Source: Saururus chinensis
Lineage: Eukaryota > Streptophyta > Magnoliopsida > Piperales > Saururaceae
Direction: 5' to 3'
Assembly: GCA_035235625.1 (NCBI GenBank)
Contig: CP141140.1
Location: forward strand, 38,745,351 to 38,809,350
Length of the DNA: 64,000 nt
Shown here: positions 1,104 through 26,740 of the stretch, piece by piece
Layout: the number at the start of each line of letters is the position of its first letter
How positions within the stretch are numbered: the stretch's first letter is position 1
Translations under genes and position numbers: made by a program
The notes under the pieces: generated by a model
The model's database searches: none
What the model saw: the letters and a program-made list of their open reading frames with translations, nothing else
What the model was told of the DNA's origin: nothing

Positions 1104-3720
1104 CTATCCACCGAGGAGGAACAAAAATGTACCAAGACTTAAAAAGGAATTTTTGGTGGAATGGGATGAAAAGGGGCATGGGAGAATTTGTCTTTAAATG
1201 TTTAAATTGTCAACAAGTGAAACCAGAACATTAGAAACCATCGAGTACCCTACAACCTATTGAAATTCCAGAATGGAAATGGGTGCACATTTCCATGGAT
1301 TTTGTTTTAGGCTTACCCAAGACTTCATCTGGTCATGAATCTATTTGGGTTATAGTTGACAAACTTACTAAAAGCGTGCATTTTCTTCCCCTAAAGAAGA
1401 TATTGACATTGAATTCTTTGGCAAGAATATATAGAAAAGAAATTGTGAGCCAACATGGAGTATTGTTATTGATCATTTCCGATCGGGATAGTCGCTTCAA
1501 TTCCCACTTTTGTTAAAGACTTCAAGAAGAGCTAGGTAATAATCTCATATTTAGTACCACCTTCCACCCGCAGATTGACGGTCAGTCTGGAAGAACTATT
1601 TAGACATTAGAAGATTTGTTACACGCATGTGCATAGATTGGAAGGGTAACTGGGATGAGCACTTGCCATTGATTGAATTTTCTTATAATAATAGTTATCA
1701 TTCCAGTATAGACATGGCACCATATGAAACTCTTTATGGTCGACCCTGTTGATCCCCAACTTGTTGGAGTGAAGTGGTGAAGGAAAGCTGGTGAAGTCAG
1801 AACTTTTGTAGTAGTGCGCTGATCCGGTAAAGCTTATCAAGATTCAATTAGTGATATCTCAGAGTCGTCAAAAGAGCTATGCCGATCAAAGAAGGAAAGA
1901 CCTCGACTTCTGCATAGGTGATCATGTGCTGCTAAAGGTATCACCAAGTCGAGGAGTTATGAGATTTGGTGTTAAAGGAAAGCTAAGTCCTCGTTTTGTA
2001 GGGTTAGTGGCTTACAAATTGGCGTTGCCCCCTCAGCTAGACAATGTTCATAATATGTTTCATGTGTCTATGCTTCACAAATATGTGCAAGATCCTTGTC
2101 ATGTTCTGGATCAGACAATGGTCACCTTAGAACTTGATTTGACCTTTGAAGAAAAATCAGTTAGAGTTTTGGATCGTAAGGAACAAATCTTGAGGACAAA
2201 AAGGATTCCATTAGTAAAAGTATTATGGCAACATCATTCTTTTGAGAAAGCAACATGGGAATTAGAAAGTAAAATTTTGAAGAAATGTCCAAAATTTCTT
2301 TAAGGGGGGAAGATTGTGAGAACTCTGATTTCTGGTATGTTTCTTAAAATCAATAATAGAATTTTAATATATTAATACAATATTGTTTTGGGTCCAATGT
2401 CTAAAGAGTATTGGTAGAACTCTAAAAGACGAGTATAATGGTTTTTGAATCATTCGAATTGGACATCGGGGCCATATGTAACGACCGCAGGAAGTGCACC
2501 TCATGGGCAAGACCCACAGTAAAACTATGGTAAAACCTATCCATGAGTGGTCTTGTTTTGAAGGGCTCATTGATACGAGTCCATAGGTACCAAAAATGTG
2601 TAATTTTGATTTATGGTTGAAAATGATGTTTCGAAGTTTTGGAAAAAAAATAAGTAAATAAATAATATTTTTTGTGGTTGAAGCAAGTTAATGCAAGATC
2701 TGTGTCAACTGCGTTAGATAACGCGATGACATGTCGTCTCATGCAACAACTACATGATGCATGGTCAGTGGTGGCCCGCACCATACGGTCATCCTTGTGC
2801 GACACGCAGGACCCACGTGGCGCACTGCACAGTCCGTTTCTTTTATAAATTCCTCCACATTTTTAACTTCAGTCATTTCAGTTCTACCACTTGTCAAACT
2901 TCTGTTCCTCTGTTATAAGCCATTTTGAGTCCAAATCAAGCTGTTCAAAGGCATTTTCAACTAAATCAACTATACTGGACACTGTGGCAGGGTCAGTTTT
3001 TGAGTTTGAGGTCTCTACAACTACAAAAAATGTATAGTCGAAATTTATGCACTATTTTTAGTCAATTATGCTTATTTGCTTTAGTTTTTGAAAAATGTCA
3101 TACGTGTGCTATGTTTTACATACACTGAATTGTGTTATGATATGTGCATTTTCGTGATAGTTCTGAGGTAAAACCTAGAATTATAATATTTTATATGGCT
3201 ACCTATTGAGGAAATAATTGCTATCTAGTGTGCGCACATAGGTTAGGAGCATCATGGGTAAGGTCTTAGCCTTCTGAGCTTCCCATTTCCTCATGAGTGT
3301 TGGGAGGAACACCCTTCTGATCTCGTTTCTGAAATAAAATTTCTTCTAACAAAAATTATTAATTTTTTGAGTTTTCTACTTAGCATTCAACAAGATTTTA
3401 ATTCTGCCTATTGAGTATACAAATGCTGCAATTATGTGACTATTATGTAAGGGCTAGCTATGCCCACAATTTGTTATCTGACTGCTCTAGGAACAGTGGC
3501 ATTGGAATATGTCATAATTTTACAATTTTTTGTTAAACCTGGCATTATGGTGATATATAGAATTTTGGTTGTGCATCGACTCTAGTTATTCTATGATTTA
3601 TTTTTTTATGTGTCTTTCTTGCGGTGGTACGAACCGACGGTTGTCATGTTCAGTTACTCGTGCGATGATAACATGTGCCGAGTAGAATAATAATTATGAT
3701 TATTATATCATATATTATTT
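1104..3720 (+). mobile_element. Ty3/gypsy chromovirus remnant (Tekay/Del type), 3' portion
   Basis: This is a broken, 5'-truncated chromovirus. Parts in order: integrase zinc-finger tail and catalytic core start (about 1.13-1.5 kb, with the lineage-typical WKWVHISMDFVLGLPKT), the integrase C-terminal region and a chromodomain (about 1.85-2.3 kb, ending in a W-x-P/H...TWE pattern), a polypurine tract at 2,302-2,313, and a 3' LTR that opens with TGTGAGAACTCTG at 2,315. The LTR has a TATA box at about 2,844. Chromodomain position and LTR start fit the Tekay/Del lineage. The LTR's right end is uncertain. The element carries several breaks and looks old. Confidence 0.85.
2315..3720 (+). repeat. 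3' LTR of the chromovirus remnant
   Basis: It starts directly after the polypurine tract with TGTGAGAACTCTG. It shares order and scattered identity with the LTR starting at 4,217: a GGACAT..GGG block, a CCCAC block, then GATCTTGTTT or GGTCTTGTTT, and the TATA box. The segment at 3,180-3,330 matches the two tandem units at 9,650-9,905 of the next LTR. No clean CA terminus is visible, so the end at about 3,720 is set only by where element A coding sequence begins. Confidence 0.55.
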
Positions 3721-5356: not shown

Positions 5357-6235
5357 AAGAGGGAGAGTGTTAGTGGGACAAGGACTCAAAGCAAGAAGTA
5401 GGCATAACCAGAACTTTGTTGAGACGAGATAGCATGCAAGCAGAGGACTTCTAGCCAAAGTAGGAGTTCGAGGAGTACTAGGAGTGGTGGAAAAACTTGA
5501 ATGAGGGATCAGCGATACCTCTAGTGGGGCTAGAACTCTTTTGGGATTGTTTTGAGCATGTATGTGGGTTGGTTTCCTATTGGTAATGGGGCAGGGATTG
5601 TGATTCCAGGATTGTAATTAAGGGAGAATCCTAGAGGGGGAGGGCACCCAAGAGTTTGAAGAGGGGAAGCCTTATATAAGAAAAGAGAGGGGGGGGACTG
5701 GAAGAAAATGAATGATTTTGGTTTAGCCTCCCTCTTTTCCATCTCTTCCCTCCTCTTCCTTCTCTCAGCAAGGACCTCCATAACTAGCAGCTTTAGAAGG
5801 TACAAAGCATCCATCTTTGGATTGAATTCAAGGCCTAGAAGTATAGGAGCAAGGGCTAGGAGCTTTGGGGACAAGTTGGTACAAGTAGGTGCTTCTCTTT
5901 ACACCCTTAAACATGAGGTTTTGATAGATGTAATTCAGCTATAGTTCAGCCTGGTTCAAGGGGGTATTTTTGATGTCATGAATTAGCCTTTACTTGTTTT
6001 GAATGATTGTGATTTTATCTTATGTTTATATGGCTGAATTGTGCATGCATGATTCTATTTTTTTTTTAAGTAGATTATCCTTAATTCAGGCAAGCATGTT
6101 ACTGATTTTTGTTATTTATCTTAGCCCTATGTTAGGCATGCATGATTTTGTTTCTAGCCATGTTTATTATCCATAATTTGGGCATAAACTCTGCTAAAGT
6201 TTATCCTTGGTTCATGGCCTTATTTAGGCCAGTCT

Positions 6236-7215
6236 TTTGTTTATTTAATCCTTGATTCATGGCCTGACTTTAGGCCATACTTTGGCCAACTTAATCCTTG
6301 ATTTGTAGCCTTACTTTAGGCCATACTTTGGCCAATTTAATCTCTGATTCGTTGCCTTACTTTAGGCCATACTTTGGCCAATTTAATCTCTGATTCGTTG
6401 CCTTACTTTAGGCTATACTTTGGCCAATTTAATCGCTAATTCGTGGCCTTACTTTAAGCAATACTTTGGCCAATTTAGTCCCTGATTCTTGGTCTTACTT
6501 TAGGCCGTACTTTGGCCAATTCAATTTTATCCCTAATTCGTGGCCTTACTTTAGGCCATACTTTGGCCAATTTAGTCAATGATTCTTTGCCTTACTTTAG
6601 GCCATACTTTGGCTAATTTAATCCCTGATTTGTGGCCTTACTTTAGGCCATACTTTGGCCAATTTAGTCCTTGATTCTTGGTCTTACTTTAGGCCATACT
6701 TTGGCCAATTTAGTCCTTAATTCTTGGTCTTACATTAGGCCATACTTTGGCTAATTCAGTCCCTGATTCTTGGTCTTACTTTAGGCCATACTTTGTGCAA
6801 TTCAATTTAATCCCTAGTTCGTGGCCTTACTTTAGGCCATACTTTGGCCAATTTAGTCCATGATTCTTTGTCTTACTTTAGACCATACTTTGGCTAATTT
6901 AATCCCTGATTCATGGCCTTACTTTAGGTCATACTTTGGCCAATTTAGTCCTTGATTCTTGGTCTTACTTTAGGCCATACTTTGGCCAATTTAGTCCCTA
7001 ATTCTTGGTCTTACATTAGGCCATGCTTTGGCCAATTCAGCCCCTGATTCTTGGTCTTACTTTAGGCCATACTTTGGGCAATTCAATTTAATCCCTAATT
7101 CGTGGCCTTACTTTAGGCAATACTTTGGCCAATTTAGTCCATAATTCTTGGTCTTACTTTAGGCCATACTTTGGTCAATCTAATCCCTGATTCATGGCCT
7201 TAGTGTAGGCCATAG
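6236..7215 (+). repeat. Minisatellite, about 46-bp unit, roughly 20 copies, with a 281-bp higher-order unit
   Basis: The monomer is built round CTTTAGGCCATACTTTGGCC, whose GGCCA/TGGCC arms can pair. Monomers alternate in their spacer (AATTTAGTCC, AATTTAATCC, AATTCAGTCC). A marked long spacer containing AATTCAATTTAATCCCT recurs near 6,515, 6,795 and 7,080, about 281 bp apart. Between these marks the order of six monomer types is the same, which makes a higher-order repeat. It lies downstream of the TATA box, within the solo LTR. Confidence 0.92.
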
Positions 7216-9649
7216 TTTGGCTAATCAAAACCCTGATTTGAGGCATTGGTTTAGGCTTTGCTATTGCTTATTTAGATCCCTATTTTGTAGCCTTGTTTTA
7301 GGCTCTATTTTGGCGAAAGTAATACCAAATTCTCAGCCTTGATTTATGTTATAATCATGCTGAGAGAATATCTAACTTTTAGCCCTAGTTTAGGTTGCAT
7401 TATTGCCTACCTAATACTTGATTCTTAGCTTTGATTTAGGTTATAATCGTGTTGATTGAATCCCTGACTTTTGAGCCTTAGTTCATGATATATTCATGTT
7501 CATTAAGTCTCTGAATTTTAGCCTAAGATGCCTTTGAAATTCAGCATAATTTGTCCCTAAATTTCAGCCTTGATTGTGATATACATTAGGGTGAATGTTG
7601 AAGGTTGTTTCAGCTTGAAATTGTCATGTTAGGTGGCTGACTTGAGTTATGCATCTCAACCCCAAATCTTTTTTATTATAATGTTGAATTGGTCAATTCA
7701 TCTCAGCATGAGTCTGAGTCCTTGTCATGTTGATTAGTGCACATGCTTGAGCCCTACGTCTGCCTATTATCTTGCCAATCATGAGAGTCGATTGCATGCA
7801 TGATAGGGTGTGATTAGTATTAAATATTTGAATGTATTTAGTCATATGTTCATTCAGCATTATGTTAGTTCACGGTAATAGCCATGGCGGATATTTAGGC
7901 CTTCATGGCCTCGACACCTTTGGGACGATGGATCGTTGCAAATAAGCAAACCAGGTTTTTGAGCAACATGGAAGGCTCATCTACCTCCGGCCAGTGTGTC
8001 CATGAGCAGAGCTGGTACCTACATCTCTAGGCCCATGGCTGATCTAAGTGGTTCTCTAGAGATGTTAGGATTTCTGTTAGCATACAATTACTCATTTGAG
8101 CAGGAGTCGGTATTTTTAGGTAACAATTAGTGCATTGTTTCCTAGACAGTGTCCATTGTTTTGTACATTGTGTTGGTCTTTATTGGTTAAAGGTCAGCCC
8201 ATGTTACTGAGCTATGTTATATTCAGTGCTCTATATATTACTTTACATGTGTCACTATATATTGATGTTCTGCATGTTGGAGTCCTATGTCTGGAGATTT
8301 CTCGACGGGCGAGTTCTCTTAGAGTGAATACAGATTTGTTAGTATTAATTATCAAACAATGGCTCGAGAGATAATTAATAACATTGTTTAATATTGCTTG
8401 TTAATTAAACAAGTGGAACGATTAAAGGACTTGCATTAACTGTAGATTTCTTTAAAATACTTAAGCATTGCATGGGTGATGCTATGCTTCTTAGTATAGT
8501 GTAGTTTTTAGGCAAAACTACATCTGGATTTGATCTTGTTGGAAACATTGAAGATGTTGTCTGATGAGTATGTAGGCAACTAACATCAGGTGATGTTGGC
8601 CCGATCCAAAAAATATTAATAAAATCTTTTATCCTTAAGGAAACTCTTCTCTTGAAGGCGGAGAGATTTCATTGTTGTTGTTGTGGTTGTTTGGTTTAGT
8701 TAGTTGCAGATTCTCAAGGCGACGACAAGTAAGACCAAAAGAAGTTAGCACAAGAAGAAGTTTTAGCACTTCTGCAACTCTAGTATGTAAGTGTTTCATT
8801 AGCGTGAGAGTCAACTTAGTTATTTATTTTTAGACGGTTGATGAATTTGTACTAAATTGGATGAGTTGTTCTTATTGAATTTTGAGACGTGTAATAATAT
8901 CATATGATATTCGTATTTGTGAACCCCAGTTATCATGACCTAGATATTTAATCAAATGGTTTGTTTTGTATTTAAGAAAAAAAAAATTTGTGACTACCGT
9001 TCATACGATTTTAGAAAGGCTTTTAAAAATCTAGGTTGTGACACTCTCAATCGCTTCTTAACCATTTTAGCCCGTTCAAAAGGCAAACCTAGCTAAATCG
9101 AGGATGCTCTATGTCATGGGAGGATCAGTTTAGAGAGATAACCTTTCTAAGTGGGGGAAGTGTCCTGGGAAAGGGGAGCCTTTGTCCACGGCCTTTGGGC
9201 AGCAATGAGAGCAATGTTCTAGGGTAAGGGAAGGCTTTGTTCTTGTTCATCAGGCTGTAAAAAGAGAAAAGTTCCCAAGTAAGGGGAGGTTCCGTCCACC
9301 ACCTTCGAGCCATTAAGGAAGAATCCTTCTAGAGTAAGGAAAGGCTCCACTCGGCATCTTTTGCCTTAAAGGGAAGATGTCTTTAAGGAATGAGGACTTT
9401 GACCGCCTCTACTTCTAGAAATCTCAGGGGAGTAAGCAACTACAACTTTATTATTTTAATGCATGCTTATGAATGTGTATGCTTATAGTTGACTTATATG
9501 AATGCATGTTATGTTGAATGACATGATTGATTGATGAATTCTTTATCGCTTTTGGGTCTTTGGACTTTTGTTTAATTATTTAAACGATACTTTGAATAAC
9601 TTTATTTGAAGGGTAGTTATTTGGTATAAAGCCCAAAAGAAATCGATTT

Positions 9650-15529: not shown

Positions 15530-17420
15530 GTTGTGGCCTACACCATCACAAGGACTATAATGAAATGGACACAAACTACTTTTTCGCAATTCAATGTGCT
15601 TCTTCTTTGGCCTGTCTCTTGGCCTTTTCGTTTTAGGAGTGAGGATGACTGCATCTCCTTCAAGCGCGATCACTCTCACTAGTTTGTCATGGGGTACGGG
15701 GAAGACAATTTCCCAGTAGGTGTTTTGATAACACTTCATCATCCAATATTCTCCCCGACAAAAAATGGTGGGTATACCTCCCATCACACAAATAGCATCG
15801 CAAGCAAGTGTATATTGTAGGCCCATTATTTGCCACTTGTGAGAAGAGCAACTGCGGTTAGCAAGATCTATAGTATAATGCCCTTCCACCTCCACCACCA
15901 CCTCTACGACATGTTCATTTGCAATCAAGTTACTAAGTGCCCGAGACTAGTTGATAATAGCATTAAGTTTGCCGTTGATTTCAAGAATAAGAAAGGTTTC
16001 CCATTGCTAACAGCATATTTTGGCATCATGCATCTTTGTCATTATCCTCATGTGAATGCCATCAATAAGGCCAATTAGTGGGTACTCTTGTTTTGCCTTC
16101 ACCCATCTGTTAATGATTTTGGCTATATTATTCAACAAGTGCCCATACCTTTCATCTTGAAAAAGTGCATTACACCAGTGGTCAGGCTCGTTCATTAGAA
16201 CCCAATTTTATGCATCCTCTAATCCTTTCCAAAGATCAAGCATTTCTTTCTCATACTCATGCATATTTATTGCATTTACAACTGTGTGGATTTTCTTTCC
16301 CACCTGCACTGCATTCCCCACGATCGTCTTCTTTTTCAATCCCCTATCCTTTAGGCCCCTATCCTTTAGGTTGTGTTCTAAGTGGTGCACGTAGTACCCA
16401 TGAAATCCATTAGGAAATATTGAGATGATACCATTGATCAATCTTTTTTCCTTATCAGATACAAATGTAATCCACCTCTCATGACCCACAACAGCTCACA
16501 ATGAATGAAGGAACCATGTCCAATTGTCTTCATTCACATTGTCTACAACACAGTAAGCCACTGGAAAGATATGATCTCCACCATCAACTGCACTTGCTAC
16601 TAAGAGACTTCCTTTTGCCTTCCCATTAAAGTGTGCACCATCCAAAAATAGTAAGGGCCAACAATATCTAAACCCAAGAATAGATGCATTCAATGAAATG
16701 AGGCAACACAAGAATCTTCTATTTGGGCTTACAGGGTTCCAAGGTTCGTCGTCATGAGTTTGTTACAATACCATGGTATATCATTGTGCAAATCCATGTA
16801 AGTCACATGTATGAGGGTAACTGCTATCTCCTTCACACGCCATGCCTTTTAATATGTAATAGTTACACCATACTCTCGATGCATGTCCTTTACCATATCA
16901 GTTGGAAAATATGTAGGTCTTTCTCACACAATCTCCACTACCAACTTAGACAAGAGGCACTTTGATGCATGAGGCTAATACTTTCTCCCTATTCCCCCTG
17001 CACAAGTATGAGGATGAACATGTTGCTTCACTTGGAAATAACTTGTCATTTGGTCCAATATGACATGTAGTTTCAAACTACAATTGGGGCTCCCACAAAC
17101 TGTTGTCACTCTTCATTTTCCATTCCTTTCAAATTTATACTTGAAGTTGTGAGGAATAAAAAATTATTTTAATGTCTTCCTTACTTCATACTGATCCTTA
17201 AACTGTGTAACCCCTATGAAATTGTTCTCCCAAATACTTGATCGCAATACCATTGTTTGACTATTTTCACCTTTGGACCTTTCTTTCATCTCTAAAGCAT
17301 TGTCATACACACTAGCTTGTGTTGGCAATGTCCACTGCCATGGCTCCTCCATCACTAATATCTTATAGCATTCTCCACTACAGTTGAACACATGGAACAT
17401 CTCCATTAACCCCATATCAT
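15530..17420 (-). pseudogene. Element A MULE transposase (MuDR/MURA-like), decayed
   Basis: On the minus strand the segments occur in family order. The N-terminal FIGVTQFKDQYEVRKTLK motif is at about 17,164-17,240. A CGSPNC zinc region follows at about 17,090. The first catalytic block, FLDGAHFNGKAKGSLLVAS, is at about 16,580-16,650, followed by DNWTWFLHSL. The second Asp block, WITFVSDKEKRLINGI, is at about 16,430-16,480. A RYGHLLNN block lies near 16,100-16,140, then a SWIM region (about 15,795-15,860) in which several metal ligands are replaced (CSS for CSC, YTL for CTH). An RPRDRPKKK stretch and half a zinc knuckle end at the solo LTR. Several frame shifts and stops are present, and a 12-bp in-frame duplication gives KDRGLKDRG. 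The gene is dead, but its family is certain. Confidence 0.9.
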
Positions 17421-17763
17421 TAGCACAACAACCTCTTCATCCAAGTCAGAGTATATATATATATATATTTCAAATTGACATCCTCGTGGAAAATTTTGAA
17501 CGATTTTGCTATCCATTGTACAAATGAACTGATATTATCGTCCTTTTCTACATAGTATAAATGATTAACACCTCCTACTATCTTCAATTTGCAATTTGGG
17601 TTGCATCAATAGTTCCCCCATAGCACGCCAGTACTCTTATCTTTAATGGTGGACTTTGCACATGGATACAACAATGTTACTTACTTATGTAACACAAATT
17701 TCTTTCCTATTCAATTATCAAACTAACTTGCATTCCCCTACATCCCCTATACCGCCAATGGAA

Positions 17764-18837: not shown

Positions 18838-18905
18838 CTCCCTCTATCCAAGATTAATAGCTCTATTTGACAAAAAAATTTGTTCCATATTAATAGCTCC
18901 ATTTT
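18838..18905 (+). mobile_element. Stowaway-type MITE end (one side only)
   Basis: TA followed by CTCCCTCTATCCAAGATTAATAGC at 18,836 matches the terminal repeat of the intact Stowaway at 50,914-51,104. No matching right end lies downstream, so the MITE was cut, most simply by element B, whose inverted end starts in or just after it. Confidence 0.6.
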
Positions 18906-19020
18906 GTTCAATATAATTGACAGTTTTTTCTATTTTGCCTGGTTGAAGAACATAATAATCCATATTCCCTGGATTTTAAACACAAATTCCATATTACTTG
19001 CTTATGGAAAAAGCTGCCCT
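18890..19020 (+). repeat. Element B left terminal inverted repeat
   Basis: It pairs with about 26,580-26,740. Shared blocks are a poly-T region, TGCCTGGTTGAAGAA, CATATTCCCT and a TTAC..TTT stretch. Identity looks near 70 percent by eye, so the element is old. Confidence 0.7.
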
Positions 19021-19075
19021 TAGGTTTCAAATAAACTCACTACGCAACATATTATAATAAATGAACACCCCAGAA

Positions 19076-19106
19076 AGTCGCCGACAGGATGTAACCGTCG
19101 GCGACT
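19076..19106. other. Perfect GC-rich hairpin, 10-bp arms
   Basis: AGTCGCCGAC (19,076-19,085) is followed by an 11-nt loop and GTCGGCGACT (19,097-19,106). The arms are exact inverted copies and hold several CpGs in otherwise AT-rich, CpG-poor DNA. It lies just inside the left end of element B, upstream of the transposase start. Confidence 0.85.
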
Positions 19107-19215
19107 CACCGGCAAGAGTTGTAGGTAATTAAAAAATTATTTTTTGACACCCCAGATGTTGTTGAGGGCTCCAAAGGCTTCATTTTGAAGATTCAATCAC
19201 CCTTTTACACCCATT

Positions 19216-22200
19216 ATGGATAGGATTCGTATCTACATACATTATAATGGAGAGGTAGGAAATGATGGCATGTATATAGGTGGAAAGGCACACTTGATGA
19301 ACATTGATCCGTTCATGAGGTTCGGGGAGCTGCTGCTTCAAGTCAAAGGACAACTTGCCATCAATGGTAATGTGACTTTGAAGTATTTAATTTCATCTTC
19401 CCAATCATCCATGATATATGAATTACAAGACAATGAGGGCTCGCAATCAATGTTCTCTATTCATAAGAAGGCAAATAAGGAGGTGTTATCATTGTATGAC
19501 GAGATGAAAGAGCCCAACAACGGTGACAAATCACCATAAGTAGAATGGAACTAGATATTCAATAGAGATAAATCACTGGTCGTAATGGCTTAGCCCAGCT
19601 CTAATTTCATATTGCAAATTGGAGTCAATGATACACAATTCACTTTTGAAATAGTCAAGTAACATTGAATTTTTAGATTACATGAGATTGTACTTTATCG
19701 TGTACTCGAGCACACAATATTGAACATATTGTGTTATGTCCAAAGCCTATCGTGTGAAGAAAAAATACGATTTTTATTCTATTGCATAAGTAATGATGCG
19801 ATATACACATGCGACATACTAATATAGATTTTTAGCATAGATATAATAACACGAAATGTATCCATATTGTGGTTTCGGTAACACAATATGAATTGTAAGC
19901 GTGTTACCAAATACACAATGTCGAGGTATATCATATTTTTATTAACATGTTAATCTCCAATGCAGATTGGGAGAACCGAGAAATTTGCCCTCTACAAATC
20001 CATGTCATTCTTCTTTCATCAATCCAATGACTACAGAACTTGTGATAGAAGTCAATCAAATTTGATTAGAAGAATTGTCGCCAACGATGGGTGCGACAAG
20101 GACTTCATTTGATAACTATGAACCCCCATACAACCCTTGTCATTACAATGGTGAAGAATTTGAAGAAATATGGGGTGATGATCAGTGGAACTATAGTGAT
20201 ATAGTTGACATGGAAAGTATGTCTGACCACGAAGAATTCGGAAATAGTGAGGTCCCCAGTAACTTTGATGTTGAGGCCAAGGCAGAGTGGGAGATAGTAG
20301 ATGATCTCAACCTGTTAGAACTGAATATTGGTGAAGGCGCACTAATGACTGGCAGTTTAGAAGCAAAGGATTACCAAAAGCTCCTCTAATTGGGTGCACA
20401 TTTTCAAAGCCTGTTGCATTTCAAGAGGGTTTTGATCGACTTAGCAATAAAGGCGAATTTCACTTACCATGTTGTGGATGAAAATAGGAATACGTATGCC
20501 ACAAAGTGATCCAATTATTCTTGTAACTGGTACATAAGGGTTTAAAATATAGGTGATCATGTGACTATCACGAGGTTAGTGTTGAACCATTCTTGTGGAA
20601 CCCAAAGAAAGTCAACTGGCCATCCCCTAGCATCGCACCTTTGGATTGCAAGAAATGTTATATGTTGTTTAAAGATCAGTAGACATTACACCTAAGAGCA
20701 TAACAAGTTATATTTCGAAGCACTAGGGCATAATTGTGAACTACAAGAAATCCTGGCACACAGGTAATATAACCTTAAGAAACTCCAAGAAGCGTGTGTT
20801 CCGTAACATGACATTTAAAGATGACATGTTGTTGGACACACGATAAGAATACAGTTGCATTTTCATATCACACAACTTGATTACATATCATGTTAACATG
20901 AACATAATGGTTAATCAGTTCTAGTTTACGATCTCAAGAGTACAAAAATTGTCGCGTGATCAGGATCACGATGACTGCACTTGTCATAAAACCTTTATTA
21001 AATTGTTAACAACTTAATATTCGATCGTGCAGGTAAAGCACTGACTGGTTTAATAGATGGGTACCCAGACGAATCCTATCGCATACTTCCTGCTTACAGA
21101 ATTCAGATAAAATATATAAATCCAAGAAGTGTAGTTGTTCCAATAAGATCATGTGATATTCCCGGACCTATAGGGAGGTACAATTTCAAAAGAGTATTTT
21201 GGATGTTTGGTCTTGTAGCTAGAGTTTTCAAAACAACATTGAGGCTTTCTGATCCTCTAGTCGAGTTGGATACAATTGTTTCTGATATTGAATCCGTTAC
21301 ATGGCAGCAAATATGTTGGATAGATTCTAGGACAACTACCTAAAGAACTAGTTCCATGTTGTAGCCAAAACTTTTAGATAGATGTGTATGAAGAAACAAT
21401 GATTAACATTAAAAAACATAATCCCAAAGCATTTGCTTGGCTAAATAAGATAGGTTCAGAGCATTGGACCAATGTCGCATTTTCAGGAAAAAGATATGGA
21501 ACCCTAAGCTCAAACATGTCTGAAAGTGTCAATACAATGTTCAAAAAAGCCAAGTCAATGCATATAACTTGGTTAATTGAGCATAGAAGGGAGCACACAA
21601 CTACATTATTTGATATACATCAGACAGACGGCCAGAATATGATAGAAGATTTAACCCCATTTGCTGGCAAATACATCGATAACAGGCAAGAAGAGCAAGT
21701 TATGTGCATGTATTGCCTGTGTAAATGTATGAATTCCAGGTTAAATTGCTTTATCACTAGGTGCATTACGTTTATACATTGTTGTCCATATCATGTGTAC
21801 GTGTATATGTTTATTGTCCATATCATGTAAGTGTATTTGTAATACTTACATGATTGTATGGTTTGCATTACAGTTCATGTACCCAGTAACACGACATTGT
21901 TTTTATTTATCATGATCTTATTCACACGATATTTACTAAACAGGATGTTGTGAATCTCATTGAACATAGCTACACATGTGGAAAGTTTCAACATCTGGGG
22001 CTATTGTGTAAACATGCAATCATAGCAATTGATCACAGACACTTCTGGGTGTCTAACTACTGCAAAAAATGGTACTCTACAGAAACATATAAATTGACAT
22101 ATCAAGAGCGAATATACGCAATAACAGATAGGCACCAGTGGGCATCGACTGGAGTTTTGCCTAAATTCAACCTGCCTATCCTACTCAAGCAGTAGGGGTA

Positions 22201-22357
22201 TCCATGAAAAAATTGGATAGAGTCATAACCAAAGGTCAAAGCCCCACGAAAATGTGGAGCATGCAAGAAGTTGGGTCACAACCGCAAACGATGTACCAAT
22301 ACACAAGAGGAAACTCTGAATGTGGTAGATGGATCAAATACAAGTCAAAGGAGGTGA
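19216..22357 (+). pseudogene. Element B MULE transposase, internally deleted
   Basis: Coding segments in order: an N-terminal ubiquitin/PB1-like domain (19,216-19,539), an acidic linker (20,075-20,389), a pre-catalytic part with ALTGLIDGYPDESYRILPAY (about 21,034-21,090) through FKRVFWMFGLVARVF to a VELD aspartate (about 21,270), then almost at once a VSD motif. The roughly 60-100 residues normally between the first and second catalytic Asp are missing. Next is a helical part with SEHWTNVAFSGKRYGTLSSN (21,384-21,690), a SWIM domain (21,950-22,195; YTC for CTC, CKH kept), and an intact CCHC knuckle CGACKKLGHNRKRC before TGA at 22,357. Spacers between segments look like introns and hold the ACACGAT motif. 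Several stops are present. Confidence 0.85.
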
Positions 22358-23313
22358 CCAAAAGAGTAGAAAAATGATGTTCTATAGGGGAACACCGATC
22401 AAGGTTGCCTTTTCCAACCCCTTTCTTTAGTTGACTTGATGAAATGCCATTGTACAGTCGTGTTTTGAGCTACATGCTTTACTAACTAATCATGTTGTCG
22501 ATAACACGTTATTTTCATTTTTGGAAACATTGTACACTATATACATATCATGTCATTTATAACACGACAAAAGTTTGTACGTGTTACCAATTACACGATA
22601 AGAGATTAAATGAATGAAATATTATTTTTGCATTGTTTGTCACTAATTACACAATATCCTTTAACATTGTACTATCAATAACACAATAACATTTAATAAA
22701 CGAACAATTTCCAAAGCATCACTCCGTTTTTCCACTGTTTGCCACTAATTACACGATATCCTTTAACATCGTACTATCGAAAACACATATCCGTTTCCAT
22801 TTCAATTGCATTTAACACCCATCCATTTCCCAATACCGACACTAGAATAGACGCGAATGGGCCATTATAAATCCGTGACCTCCAGTTATGTCAAGACACA
22901 CCTCCTATTAGATCAAGTTACTTAAGCATAGCTACTTTGCCGAGAGAATGCTCACCCATGGATCTTTAGCGCTGAAACGGAGCCTTCGGGACATTCAATA
23001 GCGCTAGATGATGATTCATCCCCCTTCAGAGGTGGTCCATGTCAGAATCTGAAGGGGGCCGATTCATAGTCTGGCATTATTTCAATGTCGTGAATGTTCT
23101 GTAGCATTTTACCTCATGTTTTGTTTTGTAATGTATCATTTCCATAGACTAGATGTTTTGTAAAACTTTGAATGTAATGGATCACCCTTTTGTAAAGGAA
23201 TATATTAATAAATGATAAGTCTTTTTTTCCCAGGAAAAAATGTGTAGTGTAACTGTTTAGGACAAAATCATCATTATCACATTTTCGGGGACACAACACT
23301 TGTACATATCATC

Positions 23314-25580
23314 TCATCGAATACACGACATCATCTTCATATCAAGATAGTCGTGTAGCACCAAAGCGACCACCTCCTTATTCTTTTGCTGCTTAGCGTT
23401 CTCTTCCACGTCTATAACTTTACAGATACTCTCTACTAGTTCATCATCAACTGGAGGGGTATCCGATATAGTGGCACTACTATCGCCAGTATTTGAGTCC
23501 ACCATTTCTGGGGGTGGGAGACTTTGCCTGTGGTGGAGGGACGGATGCTAGAGGAACTTCATCCTCTAGATTTGTCTTCTGATCCACACTTTCTATTCAT
23601 TTGGACTTTGCTATCCTCTCTTCAATATAGTTGCTGAGATTTTTTGGCTTCTTTAAGCCCTTCGCGGCCACCTTATTGGATGGCTCCTCAACCTTAGATA
23701 CATGAGTCGGTCAATCAGTGACTATGTACCTCAACTTCTGGGGCACCGGAGGTAGGAGGGGTGCTATAGGGGTAGCATCTAAAGCTTTTTGCATCTTTAT
23801 TGTCATATTTATTTCTTTTGGAGGAACTGCTTCTTTATTTTTAGACTTATTTCAGCTTTCCTCTTCTTTATTTGCTTTCCAGGATTGTTGCTTGACCTCC
23901 TAGGTTTGCTCTGTGACGTCATAGGATTGAACAACTTCGTTTATTTTCTTGAGGAATCTTGTTATTACAGTCCTTTGAACCTTTCGACCCTTCTTCTTCT
24001 TTATTGTGGAGGCAGCTTTCAGCTTCGTTTTCTCTATATATAAGAAGTAAGCAATCATATTAGTACATACACGATATGAAACTCAATCGTGTTTTGGAGA
24101 CACAATGAGTCACCCTCTCTTGTTGACCGAACTACGTAGATATGTACCATCATGTTATTGAGCACATGACCACAACCACATCATTATCTTAACTAACGAC
24201 TGTTTTTGTTTTCGTGTGCTCAATTACATGATTATCCTCATACCAACATGATATTGGAAAATGTCTTGTTTTTCCAATTGTACTCATGCAAAATGAAATC
24301 TTCATCATCAGACTAAGGGATAGGTACTCTTTGCTCTTCAAGAGCAGATTGACGAACAACTTCTCTCAATTTGGAAGCTCTAGTCTTGACCCGAGCTAAC
24401 GGCTCTCCTTCAGTTATTGGCAGAGGGGTTGCGGCATGAGGGACTTCCGGTTGAGGGGGTTCTTATGGATGCTTTTTCTTTGGTTCCTGTGGGGGTTGCA
24501 TATGTTCTATAAGGCCTTTTGCCACCTCCAAATCGTTTTTAACTTGCTAGAGTGCAACTTGAACGCTATTGGTGCTCCAACCCCGCTCCTCTTACAGAAC
24601 TGCCTTCTCCAAAACAATGTCACAAATCCTGGTGATGACATTCACTAGCATGACAAAGGATTTAATGATGTCCTGGTCGAACTGAAAATGCCTTCACGTC
24701 TAGCCATGGTGGGCGTGAATGGGTTTCATGATATAGTACTATGCGATATACACGATATAGTACTATGTCGTCTTACCGATAACACGATAAGTACACTTGC
24801 GCGTTATACATCATGTTTTCGTACTCACGATACACATGATATCTTGTGATTAAGACGGCAAGATACATGTGTGTGATGAAAATATTGTATCATTGTTACT
24901 ATGCTAATTGCAGACATCATGTTATTGATAAGAAGAGATTTACCTGGAGTACAAATGAGGCCCCAACGAGAATTCTGGCAGTATGCTCCTAATGTTTCGA
25001 TGGGCTGATGATATGCCTCGAATCAACATATCATGAACAGCCCTAGCCCAATTGTACCTCCCCACAACTATTAAGTCATCTATGAAATCACACAGAGATG
25101 GGGATGAAAATCTGTAGCTCTATGTGAATAACACTAGGGCCCCCATGTGCACGACAGCCAACCGTGCTATGTCCTCGTTAGAGACAGTCTGTCTCTTGTT
25201 AGACACTTCTTTCAACATGTCTTCAATCAAAATTTTTCTCCAGCCATTTCCCTCAGAAGAACTTCTTGAAGTATTACCCCTTACCTTGGGTAGCCTTCCC
25301 CTCACCACTTTTCAATTTAAATGGGTTCCCTTTCATACTCAAACCAGAGATCAGTGCTACTTCATCCACCATAAGGGGTAGTATTTTGCCTCTATTATTG
25401 AACACCTCTTGTGAGCCATCCTAGCACTCACCAATTAGAACATCCACGAGTAGCCTGGATATAATGATCGACTCGCAATCATATTCTGGGTAGAACCCAA
25501 TCTCCACCAAGATTGCCTTGCATCCCAACCGTGAATCAACAAGGTCTTTTGAAAGTTAGAGTCCAGCGGGGAAACTGTTT
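23314..25580 (-). pseudogene. Element B accessory gene with DUF1985/plant-mobile-domain-like region
   Basis: On the minus strand the first recognisable exon (about 25,330-25,550) encodes LGCKAILVEIGFYPEYDCES, then GKILPLMVDEVALISGLSMK, the DVxLITGLxxxG pattern typical of DUF1985 and plant mobile domains. A frame slip leads to a lysine-rich stretch and LARLAVVHMGALVLF-type helices (25,120-25,308). The next coding piece (about 24,960-25,090) encodes RYNWARAVHDMLIRGI, again family-like. Then come a coiled-coil/charged segment (24,290-24,700) and a lysine- and proline-rich tail (23,500-24,050) ending at 23,314. Stops and frame slips show decay. In Arabidopsis VANDAL MULEs, VANC proteins carry DUF1985 and act as sequence-specific anti-silencing factors, and the gene's place next to the motif arrays fits that role. 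I do not see a Ulp1 domain here. Confidence 0.6.
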
Positions 25581-25674
25581 ACTCCCAGACCTAGTCTCCT
25601 CTCATGGATTCTCTTCTGATGCCTTTACTGTTTCTGCCATTTGCTGTATATTCTAGCTTTATGTCTGCGAAATT

Positions 25675-25676
<2 letters not shown>

Positions 25677-25742
<66 letters not shown>
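25677..25742. repeat. (AT)n microsatellite, about 33 units
   Basis: An uninterrupted AT dinucleotide run. The open frame across it that would give alternating Ile-Tyr is an artefact of the repeat. Confidence 0.97.
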
Positions 25743-25744
<2 letters not shown>

Positions 25745-26579
25745 ACAATGGATTGTGACCATAATCAATAGTCTCATTGATTCACATTATGTAACTAACT
25801 TGCTTATATATGCTAAGTTGATATATCGTGTTATCAAATACATAAGATGACGCCTGCTCAAACACGATAGCACAACACTTGAATGTCATGTTTCGCTTGT
25901 CATGTTATTAATGACACGTTATGTATGCTACACATACACGATAGGATGGCATCTATATCGATTATCATATTTTCGAACACATGATATATTACTTAGTGTT
26001 TACTTGAGAACATGATAAGCTACTACAAAGATATACTTCGTGTGCTCTAAAACACGAAATAGCAAAAATCATGCATACGAATATACAATTTAGAGTTTGA
26101 GAAAGGCCTTACCACGAAATCGATCTAAGCCAGATTAACCCCTCAATCAGCCAGTGATTTTCTCCAAAGTTCACTATTTTACCGGGATTGCATTAGTATA
26201 TTGTCTGATGGAACCTTGCTTCACGATGAAACTTGCTTTGGGGCAAAAAATTTGAAAATCACCTTTCAAAAACAAGAAAATCAGAACTCACAATGGAATT
26301 TTTTTAAAATCTCCTTTAGGAAACAAGAAAAACCTGATTGTGCGGAAAACCGATTGGAGTTTTTCAAAATCATTGATGGGATGAGTCAAAAATTCGAACT
26401 CATGTTGCGTGTATACTTTTCACTACTCCGATTACTGAAATCGACTGTGAGATGGGTTAGAAAACGGAACAAAGACTTCTCACTAAGGAATCGCCTGTCT
26501 GTGAAGTCGTTTCCTTGTGAATGCTACTGTGTGAGGGTTTAACACGATATAAATCCCTAAACCCTGACCAGGGGTATTT

Positions 26580-26740
26580 ATGTCCAAAAATTTTTATATA
26601 TCATGTAAGTCTGGGTTTGATGGCACTTTTTTAGGAAATCTAGGGAATATGAAATATTGTCTTCTTCAACCAGGCAATATGGAAAAAACTCATTTTTTTA
26701 TTTCATTAACCAAAATAAACAAATACAAAATGCCAAAAGA
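26580..26740 (-). repeat. Element B right terminal inverted repeat
   Basis: Inverted copy of 18,890-19,020. It holds TTCTTCAACCAGGCA at 26,662-26,676. One ACACGAT motif lies just inside it at 26,542. Confidence 0.7.

Follow-up and report, generated by a model that had tools for sequence, protein, structure and literature searches.

A MULE family in Saururus chinensis with helically phased sites, candidate docking points for its own DUF1985-Ulp1 protein

We analysed a stretch of 64,000 nucleotides of Saururus chinensis DNA (contig CP141140.1, positions 38,745,351 to 38,809,350; hereafter the 64-kb window), which sits on contig 1 of a genome that we searched as 516 Mb in 11 contigs. Positions 18890-26740 of the window hold a Mutator-like element (MULE), called B here, with terminal inverted repeats (TIRs), the remains of a transposase gene on the plus strand, and those of an accessory gene on the minus strand (Table 1). 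The initial annotation, made from the letters alone, had recognised imperfect TIRs, a MULE transposase, an oppositely oriented DUF1985-like gene, and 14 exact copies of the motif ACACGAT, and had proposed a VANDAL-type element with its own anti-silencing gene. The imperfect TIRs are confirmed, as is the transposase, by a SWIM match of 20.9 bits (Pfam cut-off 19.6); DBD_Tnp_Mut, at 24.9 bits, falls just under its cut-off of 25. Both genes of B are broken. Relative to the copies L029, L030, L032, and L035, introduced below, the MULE core has lost about 172 nt near position 21246 and about 55 nt near 21284. B is a decayed, dead copy of a large MULE family and cannot be autonomous. No clear target-site duplication (8–11 bp in MULEs) is seen: in B and in two relatives, L030 and L036, every candidate is imperfect or AT-rich. 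A segment of B at 22971-23120 contains an inverted repeat (22997-23030 and 23048-23081), and five similar pieces lie inside another copy, at C4:39885308-39887598.

ACACGAT occurs 15 times in the window, and 14 of these sites are inside B, as had been counted; shuffled windows contain 3.4 on average, and none of 100 shuffles gets to 15. The extended form ACACGATA is found at 13 of the 14 sites and nowhere else in the window. The forms expected from CpG decay are also in excess in B (ACATGAT, 17 against 3.1; ACACAAT, 9 against 1.8). All sites had been said to lie outside coding domains: this holds for 13 of the 14, which are outside the coding-like blocks, and fails for one.

Table 1. Features of element B, in positions of the window.
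Feature	Position	Strand	Remark
Left terminal inverted repeat	18922..18992	+	71 nt, 80% alike with right arm
MULE transposase gene, remains	19237..22288	+	Pfam scan and match to family exons
Exon-like blocks of the transposase	19237-19581, 20342-20653, 21014-21274, 21223-21342, 21357-21665, 21920-22288	+	
ACACGAT at 19697 and 19749	19697..19755	-	between transposase blocks
ACACGAT	20838..20844	+	between transposase blocks
ACACGAT	21924..21930	+	edge of last transposase block; sole in-block site among the 14
ACACGAT at 22593 and 22751	22593..22757	+	downstream of transposase
Accessory gene, remains	23329..25675	-	blocks 23329-23547, 23483-24034, 24316-24708, 24985-25675
DUF1985-like part of the accessory gene	24985-25675	-	
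ACACGAT opposed pair, 17 bp apart	24069..24092	+ at 24069, - at 24086	
ACACGAT direct pair, 32 bp apart	24750..24788	+	starts 24750 and 24782
ACACGAT at 25825, 25862, and 25936	25825..25942	-, +, +	upstream of DUF1985-like part
ACACGAT	26542..26548	+	148 nt inside right end
Right terminal inverted repeat	26620..26690	-	71 nt, 80% alike with left arm

The search of the genome with the DNA of B resulted in 4092 candidate places, of which 38 were scored: B itself and 37 others, whose best pieces are 79–84% identical to it. We fetched six of these 37 (L029 to L034), a more distant copy reached through the accessory protein (L035), and a locus, L012, that holds a partial copy. TIR-like ends of the same kind were recognised by eye in L012, L030, L031, L032, and L034. 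Enrichment of the motif in other family copies, on which the initial annotation had staked its reading, was found in all seven copies retrieved through their likeness to B or to its accessory gene, with ACACGAT counts of 10 (L029), 25 (L030), 22 (L031), 12 (L032), 20 (L033), 22 (L034), and 24 (L035). This word leads the enriched 7-mers in six of them and comes second in L032, behind the overlapping TACACGA. Across nine copies (B, the part in L012, and L029 to L035), there are 155 ACACGAT against 2.8 expected with the other loci as background, and ACACGAC is likewise enriched (53 against 4.2), as are the CpG-decayed forms ACATGAT (89 against 13.9) and ACACAAT (79 against 19.8). Most of the 155 sites (148) lie outside blocks matching family exons, and these blocks account for 39% of the length. 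The original observation is confirmed and proves stronger than it was first given. L012 was also considered as a DUF1985 locus bearing the motif and was rejected as such, six of its seven motifs being in a separate, adjoining B copy.

The DUF1985 identity of the accessory gene is secure only through the relatives of B; the sequence of B alone would be insufficient. An exon of L035, read directly from the DNA, scores 35.9 bits against DUF1985 (cut-off 35.1); the accessory family thus scores to DUF1985 and not to an unrelated family, a point fixed beforehand as a check. Composites of the L030 and L029 genes cover most of the profile at sub-cut-off scores (23.6 and 22.3 bits); a third composite, of L031, was set aside because its pieces were poorly joined. 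A C-terminal exon matches Peptidase_C48 (Ulp1) at 29.4 bits in L030 and 21.1 bits in L035, against a cut-off of 20.7. Since the DUF1985 match of L035 and the Peptidase_C48 matches exceed the Pfam cut-offs, the accessory gene of the family is, by its predicted domains, a DUF1985-Ulp1 gene opposed to the transposase. The orientation originally given is upheld, and the DUF1985 assignment stands via L035, though not for B by itself. DUF287 is absent from the Pfam results for the stretches scanned, with Ulp1 present instead. By eye, the Ulp1 exon of L035 keeps a cysteine (in ACGLF) and a histidine and has YNPL where the aspartate is expected; it is a predicted protease whose catalytic residues are recognisable only in part. 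On the transposase side, L035 passes the cut-offs for MULE (50.3 bits) and Transposase_mut (39.4 bits), and L033 scores 44.4 bits for DBD_Tnp_Mut. Searching the genome at the protein level with the accessory composite of L030 gave 2424 candidates, 150 of which were scored (62–88% identity, L035 being one of them); by our count, 27 of these 150 places have no internal stop and 13 coincide with DUF1985 above the Pfam cut-off. A protein search with the L035 exons returned zero matches at E 0.001, and the best match in a PDB search (E 0.67) is chance-like.

We analysed the spacing of ACACGAT and its decayed forms in the nine copies, relative to a helix turn of about 10.5 bp. Sites on the same strand are spaced by 21, 31/32, 42/43, 52/53, and 63/64 bp, and opposed sites by 16/17, 28, 37, 49, and 59 bp (plus then minus) or 15, 26, 37, 46/47, and 58 bp (minus then plus). 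Each of the nine copies shows the phase (mean cosine 0.47–0.79, equalled in 0 of 1000 jitters), and the best-fitting period is 10.6–10.7 bp. The copies share ancestry, and we therefore removed similar pairs, which left 122 of 369. Among the pairs kept, R is 0.49 on the same strand (reached by 0 of 5000 random sets), 0.48 for minus then plus (4 of 5000), and 0.34 for plus then minus (143 of 5000, best period 11.3). Seven frequent words could be tested for phase, five of them forms of the motif and two unrelated; of the latter, ATATGGA (13 pairs) is hardly phased. Genome-wide, there are 1776 exact direct pairs at 31–32 bp (reversed control: 20) and 165 at the half-turn-shifted 26–27 bp (reversed control: 22); the perfect dyad ATCGTGT-N8-ACACGAT occurs at 801 places against 6 for its control. 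The profile of the 155 sites reads TCGTGT, then eight bases with a pyrimidine–purine (YR) step, then ACACGATA. The candidate site is ACACGAY(A), in many cases preceded by a half-site in inverted orientation (TCGTGT-N8-ACACGATA). As for the 26–27 bp pairs, the 100 rows listed fall by eye mostly into two groups of like, conserved sequences, one of them formed by a tandem unit of 26 bp that holds ACACGATG; these may mark a sub-family whose arrays have a geometry of their own.

One further copy, L036 (C1:1231500-1235500), is a 2.2-kb element with TIR arms at 873-916 and 3025-3068 (44 nt, 82% alike) and end regions 72% alike with the family ends. It contains 13 ACACGAT and a tandem array of 16.4 units of 31 bp, and the family exons have no match within it. 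L036 was chosen for its array, and is therefore uninformative on how frequent such copies are. It shows that ends and array can exist in the absence of the genes, which fits a site that acts in cis and is served in trans.

The placement of the sites, their phase, and L036 are in keeping with target sites of a DNA-binding protein that forms multimers. The obvious candidate for the binder is the DUF1985 protein, because VANC21 binds YAGTATTAY in noncoding stretches of its family and AGTTGTMC is linked to VANC6 in those of VANDAL6, in both cases with loss of methylation (PMC5735166). By this analogy, the sites are probably docking points of the element's own DUF1985-Ulp1 protein, in an anti-silencing system like those of VANC and KIU. 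The family encodes this predicted protein opposite to the transposase, with candidate sites for it scattered through noncoding DNA; the constant helical phase (opposed sites set 15 or 16/17 bp apart, with whole turns added) could allow a multimer to align along the DNA; and the bound protein, as VANC and KIU suggest, would strip silencing marks, DNA methylation included, from the copies that bear the motif, even the non-coding ones. A much more specific version is doubtful: DUF1985-Ulp1 might cover the element in an ordered polymer, on a dyad lattice of three turns (31–32 bp), with Ulp1 stripping SUMO from the silencing machinery, so that this epigenetic eraser would be addressed by sequence and helical phase together; its origin might lie with a MULE lineage that bears TIRs, within a host maybe outside the studied clades.

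The motifs could instead be sites of the MULE transposase itself, serving transposition, on the model of Ac/Ds and CACTA elements with their subterminal repeat arrays. Family members do have transposase domains, phased arrays on two strands would serve any DNA-binding protein that acts as a multimer, and L036, which keeps ends and array without exon matches, resembles a transposase substrate. Yet the sites are spread between exon blocks along the element instead of taking a subterminal position. In the two copies of the end-distance test seen with both TIRs, B and L030, the first site follows the left end after 775 and 837 nt, with 1 of 14 and 1 of 25 sites within 500 nt of an end; in L029, measured from the start of similarity, it is 600 nt in, with 1 of 10. 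Because the motifs avoid the element ends, this explanation is weakened, and we regard it as unlikely. The 31-bp array of L036 would fit another origin, in which the sites are relics of old 31-bp tandem repeats and the phase merely mirrors the length of the unit, with no protein involved; such units also occur elsewhere among the listed pairs at 31–32 bp, and many sites are CpG-decayed. Against this, tandem-repeat searches of B and L035 turned up no array of the motif with a 31-bp unit, those of L030 gave just one 30-bp row of 1.9 copies, and the flanks of phased same-strand pairs are barely more alike than those of distant pairs (36.3%, 117 pairs, against 33.4%). The phase also persists at 21, 42/43, and 52/53 bp, across strands, and after the removal of similar pairs, which makes a purely repetitive origin improbable. 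Least probable of all, and very much so, is that the motif is the site of a host transcription factor driving the element genes: the sites do occur between exon blocks and in front of them and use both strands, but the genome-wide excess of the dyad over its control and the strict phase suit a dedicated multimer better.

Several results weigh against docking points for a DUF1985-Ulp1 protein. DUF1985 scores only 13.2 bits in B (E 0.089, under the cut-off), where the unrelated Vps4_C ranks above it (15.8 bits, also sub-cut-off), and the Ulp1 exon of L035 has no match in B. The argument from noncoding placement is weakened by CG words of the same letters, which are also scarce in coding blocks (154 of 1006, against 7 of 155 for ACACGAT, the contrast that remains), so that the binomial p of 1e-23 exaggerates the strength of this placement. 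For opposed pairs, the offsets of the phase were fitted on the data on which they were tested, and the second unrelated control word, TACAAAA (13 pairs), is phased too. Finally, a scan of 19 other DUF1985 loci for enriched phased 6-mers found no clear array, though the scan is weak because the total for B (18.8) is matched by L016 (21.9, enriched and unphased) and L023 (17.0), with L029 and L032 lower.

Related systems have already been reported, so the B family is not a new kind. In Arabidopsis, VANDAL21/Hiun with VANC21 and VANDAL6 with VANC6 are likewise MULEs with a gene for a DUF1985 protein and a short family-specific motif dense in introns, intergenic DNA, and terminal noncoding DNA (PMC5735166). 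The motif itself, ACACGAY, differs from both of theirs, and the initial annotation had rightly set it apart from that of VANDAL21. The VANC21 sites are described as arrayed in the same orientation, whereas the B family uses both strands and dyads; VANC targets are often in tandem repeats (PMC5735166), and in the B family a 31-bp array is present in L036, with none in B or L035. For VANC, DUF287 is named alongside DUF1985 (PMC5735166, Fig. 5 legend), while the B family has Ulp1 in place of DUF287, and TIRs. VANDALs have no TIRs or short degenerate ones, some clade members having TIRs, according to a section of PMC6446971; those here measure 71 nt at 80% in B and 44 nt at 82% in L036. With TIRs, DUF1985 plus Ulp1, and no DUF287 in the stretches scanned, the label VANDAL-type is not supported in that form. 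KI-MULEs also carry an Ulp1 domain reverse to mudrA, as do L030 and L035, but are described as non-TIR in the relevant passage of PMC2528002, in contrast to the TIRs and own motif of the B family. The same passage reports MULEs of grapevine and melon, with and without TIRs, that have a ULP-like region downstream of the transposase in either orientation; they are alike in this region, and motif arrays are not mentioned in that description. KIU-carrying VANDALs, with Ulp1-bearing VANC genes, recognise specific motifs in their own noncoding regions, as stated in a passage of PMC13317346 that cites Sasaki et al. 2022. The suggestion that the strategy is wider than the VANDALs is, as far as it reaches beyond VANDAL21, at least in part not new, VANC6 and, from that passage, KIU systems being known. 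Judged against the open-licence literature, we read the B family as a further VANC/KIU-type system, with TIRs, DUF1985-Ulp1, and phased sites on two strands.

Other DUF1985 loci contain clusters of palindromes like GTATCGATAC (L016:1219-1859, L028:2986-3103, L025:9244-9950), perhaps another motif system, and in L023:8835-9190 CTCATAC is repeated at 6, 20, and 26 bp. Elsewhere in the window, frames on the minus strand at 16208-17436 resemble by eye a second MULE transposase fragment, an open frame on the plus strand at 1815-2303 resembles by eye the C-terminal part of a long terminal repeat (LTR) retrotransposon polyprotein, and a 46-bp tandem repeat of 22.2 copies with TTTAGGCC and TTGGCCAA occupies 6203-7238, perhaps in an element A. 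A genome search for the TIR domain (PF01582) of NLR genes gave one match from four candidates, with no large TIR-NLR set seen, and this argues against a host with an abundance of such genes.

Sasaki and colleagues reportedly described in 2022 gains and losses of DUF1985, DUF287, and Ulp1 among eudicots, with specificity set by the sequence, density, and helical periodicity of the motifs. If this is so, the phase in the B family would point independently to one and the same principle. The array can be read from the sequence alone, with its dyad and its phase along the helix, one derivative retains just the ends and the array, and the helical phase may serve as a handle in the search for such systems in other genomes. 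The system bears on the question of how transposons shed silencing without harm to the host, and it raises, outside Arabidopsis, that of what the Ulp1 domain may add.

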